64,000 nucleotides of DNA. Origin: Halobellus captivus (GTDB lineage Archaea; Halobacteriota; Halobacteria; Halobacteriales; Haloferacaceae). The stretch lies in the NCBI RefSeq assembly GCF_003697845.1, contig NZ_RDQE01000001.1:124001-188000 (forward strand), written 5' to 3'. Shown one piece after another: positions 33,961 to 35,857 of this stretch. How positions within the stretch are numbered: position 1 is the first letter of the stretch; the number at the start of each line of letters is the position of its first letter. The notes under the pieces are model-generated. The model was not told the DNA's origin and did not search any database. It was given only the letters and a program-made list of their open reading frames with translations. Both the position numbers and the translations under genes were made by a program.

Positions 33961-34096
33961 CGGTCGGCGCGTGCCTCCGAGCGCCCGTCAGGGCGGGAGG
34001 AGCCCGCGCGAGGGACGCGGTGAGCGCTCGAAGAGCGTGAACCGCGAGGCTGGGGAGGCGTGAGGTGCGGAGCGGGGCGGGGCGGGATTCGAAGGG
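33961..34096 (+). repeat. Structured repeat element, copy A
   Basis: An element of about 136 bases, almost the reverse complement of 35719-35857. From 5' to 3' it has a hairpin near GCGCCC-GTCA-GGGCG, a conserved block GAGGAGCCCGCGCGAGGGA, a long imperfect hairpin (CGCGGT...CGCTC-GAA-GAGCG...ACCGCG, 34016-34046), then GAGGCTGGGGAGGCGTGAGG and a GATTCGAAGGG end. It follows menB directly. It is the left part of a 557-base region without a protein gene (33942-34498). Confidence 0.7.
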
Positions 34097-34499
34097 ACGG
34101 GCGGGTCGGTCCTGCCCGGACGACGCAAGCACTCGGAGCCCGGAACGGCGAGCGAAGCGAGCCGCATGCCCGGATCGGGCGCGCAGCGAGTCCCGGCGGG
34201 TCGACCCGTCCGGGGCTTCGGCGGTCGTGTTCCGGGTCCCATCACTCACGGAGCACTCGTTGAGGTGCTTACTTCGCTCGCGTCCGCGCTCACCACCCGT
34301 TCCCTGCTTCGAATCCCTCCCAGCCGAGCCGCAGCGCTCACGGTGTGTGAGCGCCGCGACGTGCGGGGGAAGGGATTCGAACCAACGAAAGACGGTCCGG
34401 GCATGCGGCTCGCTTCGCTCGCGGTCCGGGCTGCGACTTTCCGGGTTCGAACCCTTCTGATCAGACTCCTGCGGCTCGCGAATTGCTCGCCGCAGGAGT
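34097..34499. repeat. Hairpin array with tRNA-end-like boxes downstream of tRNA-Leu
   Basis: Gene-free stretch made of hairpins and TTCGAA boxes. Hairpins: GGCGAGCGAAGCGAGCC around 34152; GCGCTCA/TGAGCGC (34334-34340 and 34348-34354); a GCTCGCTTCGCTCGC-type stem near 34408; and ACTCCTGCGGC/GCCGCAGGAGT (34465-34475 and 34489-34499) with a 13-base loop, ending exactly at the tRNA 3' end. A 23-base segment at the tRNA 3' end (34498-34520) is duplicated exactly at 34361-34383. A third T-arm-like box lies at 34439-34454. Confidence 0.6.
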
Positions 34500-34583
34500 G
34501 CGGGGGAAGGGATTCGAACCCTCGAACCTCTACAGGAGCGGATCTTAAGTCCGCCGCTTTTGGCCAGGCTCAGCCACCCCCGC
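34499..34583 (-). tRNA. tRNA-Leu (UAA)
   Basis: An 85-nt class II tRNA on the minus strand. The acceptor stem GCGGGGG pairs with CCCCCGC and is followed by discriminator A at 34499. The D arm has TGGCTGAGCCTGGCCAAAAGCG. The anticodon stem-loop GGACTTAAGATCC gives anticodon TAA. A variable arm (GCTCCTGTAGAGG) and T arm GAGGGTTCGAATCCCTTCC follow. No intron is seen and no CCA is encoded. It reads UUA codons, and possibly UUG by wobble. A perfect 11-bp hairpin sits immediately downstream, likely for termination or 3' processing. Confidence 0.95.
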
Positions 34584-34637
34584 GCGGATCCGGGTACCGC
34601 CGGCGGGGTCAAACCCCTTTCGGAACCCGGACCGCCC

Positions 34638-35000
34638 TCACCAGTCGACCGACAGCGTTCCGTCGCCGTGCGGGTCCGGCGCGATCTCCTCATCGGTCCG
34701 GCGGTCGACGACGTGGATGACGCCGCGCTCCTTCTTCGCCGGGCAGACCTCCGCGGCGCGAACGTTCTCGGCCAGGTCGTCCTCGCCGACGTAGTAGGTC
34801 CGCGGCTTCGCCATCCCGCTCACCACGTCCATCTCCCAGTTGTCGGCGACCTCCGCGCACTTGCCCGCGCCGAAGCACTTGTTCGCCTCGAAGACGATCT
34901 TGTACGGCTTCTCCTCGATCGGCGGCCCCTCGCCGCCGATGTCGCTCGCCGAGAGGACGTCGTCGTCTCCGTCGGCGTTCCCCTCGTTGTCGTCGCTCAT
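34638..35000 (-). CDS. Ferredoxin of the 3Fe-4S type
   Basis: A 120-residue ferredoxin. The cluster ligands read NKCFGAGKCAEVA (Cys, then Ala where a 4Fe ferredoxin would have Cys or Asp, then Cys) and EVCPAKKER. This C-x2-A-x2-C...CP pattern is that of single [3Fe-4S] ferredoxins, as in P450-partner ferredoxins. The first 30 residues are an acidic tail and the last 20 a haloarchaeal extension. It is a soluble one-electron carrier. No obvious redox partner lies next to it. Upstream frame is open but arginine-rich, so ATG at 35000 is preferred. Confidence 0.85.
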   Translation of the reverse strand: MSDDNEGNADGDDDVLSASDIGGEGPPIEEKPYKIVFEANKCFGAGKCAEVADNWEMDVVSGMAKPRTYYVGEDDLAENVRAAEVCPAKKERGVIHVVDRRTDEEIAPDPHGDGTLSVDW

Positions 35001-35184
35001 ACCTCTCGATCGGTGACCGCGGGACTTTCGTCTGTCGGTCGCGCGGTCCCGGGTCGGCTCGACCGACGCGTCCACGGGCCGCGCGGACGACCGGACGTCG
35101 GTCCGCCATCGGTCACGAGCGCCCGCGAGACGCCCGCCGACCGGAGTCGAACGCTTCAAGTATTCGCTGGCTGTTCGTAGGGAC

Positions 35185-35556
35185 ATGAAAGACCAGGGAC
35201 GCTCCACGCGCAAGCGAACCGGCGGCCGACTGAAGCCCGCCGCGAAGAAGAAGCGCCACCAGCTCGGCCGCGAGCCCGCCGAGACGACGGTCGGCGAGAC
35301 CCGCGTTCAGTACATCGACTCCCGCGGCAACGAGCGGAAGGTCCGCGCGCTCGCGACGAACGTCGCGCAGGTCGCCGACGGCGGCGAGGTCGTCGAGGCC
35401 GATATCGAGGACGTCGTCGAGAACCCCTCGAACGTCAACTACGTCCGCCGGAACATCGTCACCAAGGGTGCCGTCATCGAGACGAGCGAGGGGCGCGCCC
35501 GCGTCACCTCCCGACCCGGCCAGACCGGCCAGGTCAACGCGGTCCTGATCGAGTAG
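35185..35556 (+). CDS. 30S ribosomal protein S8e
   Basis: A 123-residue archaeal S8e. The basic N-terminus MKDQGRSTRKRTGGRLKPA is diagnostic and followed by KKKRHQLGREPAET. The body is a beta barrel (VQYIDSRGNERKVRAL, IVTKGAVIETSEGRARVTSRPGQ). The length is normal for the family. It binds 16S rRNA in the small subunit. It stands alone, with the ferredoxin gene divergent on its left and a repeat element downstream. Confidence 0.95.
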   Translation: MKDQGRSTRKRTGGRLKPAAKKKRHQLGREPAETTVGETRVQYIDSRGNERKVRALATNVAQVADGGEVVEADIEDVVENPSNVNYVRRNIVTKGAVIETSEGRARVTSRPGQTGQVNAVLIE

Positions 35557-35718
35557 TTACGCCGTCGACCTCGGCGGAGCCGACCGTTCGGCAACGCGAT
35601 CCACGACCCGATAGTCCCCACTCGACCGCTCGGTACGGCGTCGTCGTCGACGTGACACCGGAGAACGTCCCCGAAGCCCCCGCCTCGCGGCTGCCCTCTT
35701 GAGTCCCGCACCGCCTCG

Positions 35719-35857
35719 CCCCTTCGAGTCCCACCCCGCACCGTTCCACACCTCACGCCTCCCCAGCCTCGTCAGTCGCCTTCGCTTCACTCGGCGACTG
35801 ACTCCCTCGCGCGGGCTCCTCGCGCCCGTCAGGGCGCTCGGAGGCACGCGCCGACCG
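35719..35857 (-). repeat. Structured repeat element, copy B (inverted)
   Basis: About 139 bases, inverted relative to copy A at 33961-34096. It keeps the same flanking blocks, but its main hairpin is different: GTCAGTCGCC (35771-35780) pairs perfectly with GGCGACTGAC (35793-35802). The second hairpin GCGCCC-TGAC-GGGCGC is perfect here and imperfect in A. It fills most of the 364-base stretch between rps8e and RNase HII, where I see no gene. Confidence 0.7.

Follow-up and report, generated by a model that had tools for sequence, protein, structure and literature searches.

A dispersed non-coding repeat of haloarchaea with a conserved frame and apparently exchanged hairpins

Introduction

An inverted pair of repeats, copies A and B, lies within a 64,000-nt stretch of haloarchaeal DNA (the whole stretch is called the window here) and raises the question of why a hairpin should be kept as a structure when its sequence is replaced inside a conserved frame. 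A sequence-only reading of the window had described long shared blocks around a main hairpin of unrelated sequence, and had suggested selection for folding or an active exchange mechanism. The source genome has a GC content of 69%, and its nearest named relatives, judged by the eS8 ribosomal protein gene, include Halorubrum rubrum, H. aquaticum, H. cibi and H. halodurans. The two copies were used here to search for further family members, to compare their stems and to follow their sites in these relatives.

Results

Copies A and B in the window

Both copies were present where the sequence-only reading had placed them, with the repeat blocks and both hairpins as described. The two quoted blocks, GAGGAGCCCGCGCGAGGGA and the one beginning GAGGCTGGGG, each occur exactly twice in the window, once per strand. 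The inverted repeat has a first arm of 55 nt (33961-34015 with 35803-35857, 91% complementary) and a second arm of 62 nt (34045-34106 with 35710-35771, 85% complementary). The stem between the shared blocks differs as claimed, being CGCGGTGAGCGCTCGAAGAGCGTGAACCGC in copy A and GTCAGTCGCCGAGTGAAGCGAAGGCGACTGAC on the minus strand in copy B (P2 in Table 1). Two further parts, absent from the earlier description, were found in both copies: an upstream structured hairpin, P0/P1, and a downstream second module that belongs to full-length copies and is shortened in B.

Table 1. Coordinates of copies A and B and their parts in the window
Feature	Position	Strand	Remarks
Copy A, full-length element (core and second module)	33961..34220	+	starts 20 nt past the menB stop codon
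Copy A, P0 5' strand GCGCG	33967..33971	+	pairs with 34005-34009 CGCGC
Copy A, P1 hairpin CTCC-GA-GCGCCC / GGGCGG-GA-GGAG, loop GTCA	33975..34002	+	covariation
Copy A, P0 3' strand CGCGC	34005..34009	+	covariation, length coupling
Copy A, invariant GAGGGA linker ahead of the variable stem	34010..34015	+	(nearly) invariant alignment columns
Copy A, P2 hypervariable hairpin, class a, apical loop C-GAA-G	34016..34045	+	
Copy A, conserved single-stranded motif GAGGCTGGGGAGGCGTGAGGTGCGG	34046..34070	+	
Copy A, second module GGGATTCGAAGGG ... GGGGCTTCG, closing stem CGGGCGGGTCGG / TCGACCCGTCCG	34084..34220	+	covariation over 25 copies
Copy B, inverted, between the eS8 gene (35185-35556, +) and rnhB (from 35921, +)	35672..35857	-	
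Copy B, P1 hairpin	35816..35843	-	loop TGAC, reverse complement of GTCA in copy A
Copy B, GAGGGA linker	35803..35808	-	
Copy B, P2 hairpin, class e (GTCAGTCGCC / GGCGACTGAC)	35771..35802	-	
Copy B, conserved motif GAGGCTGGGGAGGCGTGAGGTGTGG	35746..35770	-	
Copy B, second module, shortened and rearranged	35672..35732	-	

The rnhB gene beside copy B encodes ribonuclease HII, and a tRNA-Leu gene sits between the two copies. As a separate observation, a 29-nt stretch over the 3' end of tRNA-Leu(TAA), at 34361-34389, recurs 137 nt away at 34498-34526 with 27 of 29 positions identical and resembles the attachment-site remnant of an integrated element.

A family of dozens of copies

Searching its own genome with copy A by blastn returned 47 matches. 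An alignment of 36 of these copies was used to build a covariance model with P0, P1 and P2, and the model found 76 copies in the source genome at E ≤ 0.01. A search of the window with a loose motif pattern was uninformative because shuffled controls also matched, and the covariance model was used instead. The sequence-only reading had counted against itself the case in which only two degenerate copies existed; the opposite was found, and that case is ruled out by the 76 family copies.

The search of the genome and its relatives that the same reading had proposed thus revealed a dispersed family, present in the source genome, in all 52 Halorubrum genomes searched and in 77 of 194 genomes sampled across the Halobacteria (covariance model, E ≤ 1e-4). 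Halorubrum genomes carried from 11 to at least 77 matches each, the high counts being lower bounds since about 75 candidates were scored per genome. Distant loci were read by eye because the E-values of the model are rough; read in this way, the stems of members in other families differ widely, and GCGCGAGGGA - hairpin - GAGG(C/T)TGGGGAGG or a near version of it is retained. One weak match was located on a plasmid, of Halorubrum salinarum. No family match was found in the phage collection searched, and three pattern matches in viral contigs were chance hits outside the frame, so a virus-borne origin was rejected. In Rfam, the element matched no family, with nothing near a gathering score even at a relaxed E-value; the sole Rfam match in the window was the tRNA. 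The motifs of this repeat were not described in the open-access literature searched. The family is an undescribed non-coding repeat of haloarchaea, unnamed in the sources searched.

Anatomy of the element

The copies share a fixed frame, GGYGGCGCG - P1 - CGCGAGGGA - P2 - GAGGCTGGGGAGGCGTGAGGTGCGG, frequently with a second hairpin module after it. Read 5' to 3', the order is the short helix P0 (GCGCG/CGCGC), which closes the P1 hairpin; P1 itself, with a tandem G-A step; GAGGGA; P2; GAGGCTGGGGAGGCGTGAGGTGCGG; and G-rich TGCGG units. GAGGGA and GAGGCTGGGGAGG are conserved parts of this frame, and its unpaired motifs are conserved across genera. The core measures about 107 nt (range 100-140 nt), and the full element, as delimited by near-identical copies, 323-379 nt (about 345 nt). 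Many copies continue with a second module, GGGACTCAAAGGGGC - long stem - GGGGCTTTG. There are two or three hairpins per element. Some full copies show a 6-nt GCGGTG/CACCGC match at their ends, with no consistent terminal inverted repeats beyond that.

Other arrangements were also seen. An alternative 3' module, GTTGAGGAGCGGATTCACAGATCGACCGGAGACGACGCCAGC...TTTTCGAGGAG, is present in L004, L009, L030, L138 and L140, so that no fewer than two distinct modules can follow the core. L034, L045 (copy A), L150, L004, L009, L007, L011 and L017 carry a micro-insert of some 48 nt with twin hairpins, AGGG-hairpin-TTGAAGCCGG-hairpin-GCGAC, whose own stems vary; in three cases it lies at the 3' foot of P2, and it is similar to the SMR elements known from Haloquadratum. 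In at least five copies (L014, L025, L151, L152 and L162), the G-rich tail contains another inserted hairpin cassette, about 80 nt long, CCCGCGAGNGAAACGAGCGGG...CTTCCGGTAG. At L028 (1499-1960), two elements stand face to face in one intergenic gap, the second with a duplicated GAGGYTGGGGAGGGC motif.

The stems covary and the loop rule is strand-specific

The sequence-only reading had proposed selection for folding and a test of covariation in aligned stems. Alignment of 108 copies revealed paired changes in the stems, and the covariation, the coupled lengths of P0 and a strand-specific rule for GNA loops uphold the proposal. The covariation score was 0.416 compared to 0.129 in shuffled controls, with 87% compared to 70% of cells paired and 289 compared to 80 double-change cells; these controls ignore kinship between copies. 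When the partner strand was slid, the score fell to 0.028-0.113, and a slide of one column reduced it to about 0.03. All ten P1 pairs change on both sides, with 95-97% of cells paired, as do all four modelled P2 pairs; over both stems, 81-97% of cells are paired despite differing sequences. P0 has long and short forms, and in 96 of 99 copies both strands have the same form. In the case of the closing stem of the second module, 94% of cells were paired over 25 copies, and 38 double-change cells were counted against a mean of 7.6 and a maximum of 20 in shuffled controls that again ignore kinship. Comparison of the copies indicates that it is the structure that is selected: the helices are kept as such, and their sequence is free.

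There are 64 distinct P2 sequences among the copies of the source genome, and 94% of these fold more than 2 s.d. better than their shuffles. Closed GNA triloops, in which N can be any of the four bases, cap 31 of the 64 hairpins, whereas the mirror TNC loops cap four. On the folding strand, G-T pairs outnumber A-C mismatches by 21 to 8 in P2 and by 15 to 0 in two P0 pairs, and G-U wobbles exceed A-C mismatches by 14 to 4 in the second-module stem. These asymmetries suggest that the G/A-rich strand folds as a single strand, either RNA or single-stranded DNA. The wobble bias is compatible with both. GNA loops closed by C-G form exceptionally stable DNA mini-hairpins (PMC4686876), and the triloop preference therefore leans towards single-stranded DNA.

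Hairpins differ between orthologous sites

Four relatives, H. rubrum, H. aquaticum, H. cibi and H. halodurans, have the frame both beside menB and between eS8 and rnhB; in most other Halorubrum species the eS8-rnhB gap is short and empty, with no copy B. The P2 of copy A is 97% identical to that of H. rubrum and 33-60% identical to those of H. aquaticum, H. cibi and H. halodurans, whereas P1 identity is 78-89% in all four. Copy B displays the same pattern of P2 replacement across species, with the H. cibi copy disrupted by an extra insert. Only in H. aquaticum is the P2 of A, 42 nt long, identical to that of B, as if it had been transferred from one to the other. The A and B of H. halodurans have an unusual P1 in common, but not P2. 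Within the source genome, P1 and P2 classes were found in most combinations. The exchange that the sequence-only reading had put forward is supported by these sites, where unrelated P2 classes occupy a frame that is kept in related species, and by the mixing of P1 and P2 classes within the genome.

Loops inverted between related copies were also observed (L006 compared to L001, GTCA/TGAC; L019 compared to L033, GGAGCGAAGCGGAG/CTCCGCTTCGCTCC), and may reflect template switching, or recombination, at the hairpins. Ectopic recombination or gene conversion is the route that we infer for P2 turnover. Haloarchaea carry out gene conversion efficiently, but the tracts measured in Haloferax are long: sites separated by 600 bp are nearly always converted together (PMC8223754), and the swapping of a 30-nt stem alone fits poorly with this. 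The stem classes could alternatively be old subfamilies.

Genomic context and dispersal

Genes were called with a home-made codon-usage finder, which recovered the known genes of the window. None of 75 cores overlapped a predicted gene. The 5' neighbour of the element was on the same strand in 40 of these copies and on the opposite strand in 34. Some copies adjoin gene starts. No T-tract was seen after the hairpins and no orientation bias was found, and a fixed orientation to genes or an intrinsic terminator was ruled out on these grounds. The AT content at -30 was 0.38 upstream of the 75 elements, compared to 0.65 upstream of genes at the same loci; with no AT-rich peak upstream of copies, no own promoter was seen.

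Near-identical copies were found in unrelated flanks (97% over 323 nt, 93% over 345 nt and 93% over 379 nt), with no target duplication visible at the ends of these three copy pairs. At one tRNA-linked locus (C12:6078), the element is missing from some relatives and inverted in others. The non-coding flanks there are too diverged among relatives for an exact empty site or a junction to be made out. No transposase, terminal repeat or target duplication could be tied to the element. Such copies in unrelated flanks, together with presence or absence and inverted orientation between relatives, lend indirect support to mobility.

A Y1 transposase search, in which RAYTs were pooled with IS200 TnpA, found one gene in the source genome. 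That sole IS200-type locus has no end sequence in common with the element. The same search gave no Y1 match in 11 of the 52 Halorubrum genomes, most of which nevertheless have 54-76 copies. The published H. lacusprofundi PATE neither matched the covariance model nor aligned. A derivation from IS200/IS605 is not supported, since full copy numbers persist in genomes with no Y1 match, the IS200 ends are not shared and the Halorubrum PATE is unrelated.

Discussion

Comparison of sequences reveals a family with a common structure, stem turnover, modular mixing and dispersal. The best explanation, to which we assign a probability of roughly 0.55, is that A and B are non-coding, dispersed intergenic repeats of haloarchaea that act like REP/BIME or miniature mobile elements, with hairpins exchanged by recombination; the element is probably a non-autonomous mobile repeat. 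A recognising factor, a mobility mechanism, a type of nucleic acid and a function can be proposed from this. Either as RNA or as single-stranded DNA, the G/A-rich strand would fold on its own, and a conserved factor of the host or the element would recognise the unpaired frame motifs and the hairpin geometry. Copies may spread by a copying mechanism, the conserved frame may let hairpins pass between them in ectopic recombination or gene conversion, and the fold would act as a filter on the exchanged hairpins. The class-wide spread and the strong conservation of motifs could equally mean a host function instead.

Several other explanations were weighed against this one. A multi-copy structured RNA family, transcribed as its own RNA or as part of a 3' UTR, with a protein-binding fold in which P2 is a spacer helix of free sequence, is unlikely. 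The strong covariation in the core stems and the second module agrees with it, as do the excess of G-U wobbles over A-C mismatches in P2, two P0 pairs and the second-module stem, and the enrichment of copies in convergent gene gaps. GNRA loops, the usual choice of RNA, are however rarer here than GNA triloops. The latter are unusually stable as DNA (PMC4686876). An AT-rich promoter peak is absent, orientation to neighbouring genes is near random, copy number within a single genus ranges from 11 in one species to 75 or more in another, and there is no Rfam family. An active-ncRNA PATE reported in Halobacterium, as cited in PMC10544981, speaks for an RNA. A rather improbable reading gives the repeat, as DNA or RNA, a cis-acting role for the host at the ends of genes, in 3' processing, transcription stop, or as a nucleoid or topoisomerase site. 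Its appeal is that the copies are all intergenic, that 35% of the classified copies (25 of 71) are in gaps between convergent genes, compared to 7% (7 of 101) for the remaining gaps of 60 nt or more, and that the family is conserved across the class. This sits badly with the lack of a fixed orientation and of a T-tract, with copies beside gene starts too, with the very uneven copy number between species and with orthologous sites that are often empty.

It is very unlikely that the element is a PATE, that is, an IS200/IS605 deletion derivative moved by TnpA through single-stranded hairpins. PATEs are abundant and palindromic and have neither terminal inverted repeats nor target duplications, according to PMC3119063, and the element also has no target duplication in three copy pairs and no predicted genes over 75 cores; the Y1, end-sequence and PATE comparisons given above argue against it. 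Least probable, at a few chances in a hundred, are passive DNA palindromes that decay free of selection, with stem replacement as mere template switching at hairpins. Some loops are indeed inverted (GTCA in A and TGAC in B; the apex of L019 compared to L033), but P1 and P2 stay paired although their sequences differ, loops and wobbles are strand-asymmetric, and unpaired motifs are conserved across genera. The strand-specific loop rule in particular disfavours this as a full explanation.

Mobile-like repeats with exchanged hairpins remain our preferred reading, and dozens of them stand on a haloarchaeal chromosome, unnamed in the sources searched. With more than 60 distinct structure-preserving stem replacements, a single genome supplies a natural series, and a test bed for hairpin exchange in polyploid archaea and for selection on RNA compared to single-stranded DNA. 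There is also a practical bearing on assembly, on probe and primer design and on the interpretation of intergenic regions in model haloarchaea.

Among known systems, MITEs are likewise short, non-autonomous, dispersed and intergenic, but the ends of the element match over just 6 nt in some copies, with no target duplication seen in three copy pairs and no parent transposon identified in a limited search. The PATEs and SMRs of Haloquadratum are non-coding and palindromic, have no transposase and reach about 200 per genome, and SMR-A elements insert in PATE palindromes (PMC3119063); the hairpin inserts inside the present elements are reminiscent of the latter. Unlike PATEs, the element has no IS605-like ends, and the Halorubrum PATE in virus HRTV-DL1 gave no match. 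Stem turnover in a fixed frame is a further difference, not described for PATEs or SMRs in the text consulted (PMC3119063). RepRanger reports REP-like palindromes in archaea, with no haloarchaeon named in the portion of its text available (PMC12306157).

The REP/BIME sequences are high-copy extragenic hairpins with a short conserved tag, alternative complementary residues in the stem and many stem and loop subfamilies (PMC3733652). The element differs from them in its conserved sequence, which lacks the GTAG or CGTC that marks the foot of their 20-40 bp palindromes, and in its size, with a core of 100-140 nt and a full length of about 345 nt; it is archaeal, has two or three hairpins, and no RAYT partner was found for it in the Y1 search, which pooled RAYTs with IS200 TnpA. 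It was not filed as a REP because the tag, the size and the known partner are absent. The closest likeness is nevertheless to these repeats of the GTAG and CGTC families: the present ones are also high-copy, extragenic and hairpin-forming, with a fixed tag and varying complementary stems. A bolder version of this comparison, which we regard as unlikely for now, would have a conserved factor read the folded strand (RNA or single-stranded DNA) by its unpaired frame, with the hairpins as cassettes swapped among dozens of copies, making the repeat, throughout the haloarchaeal class, an archaeal counterpart of the REP/RAYT system with machinery of its own.
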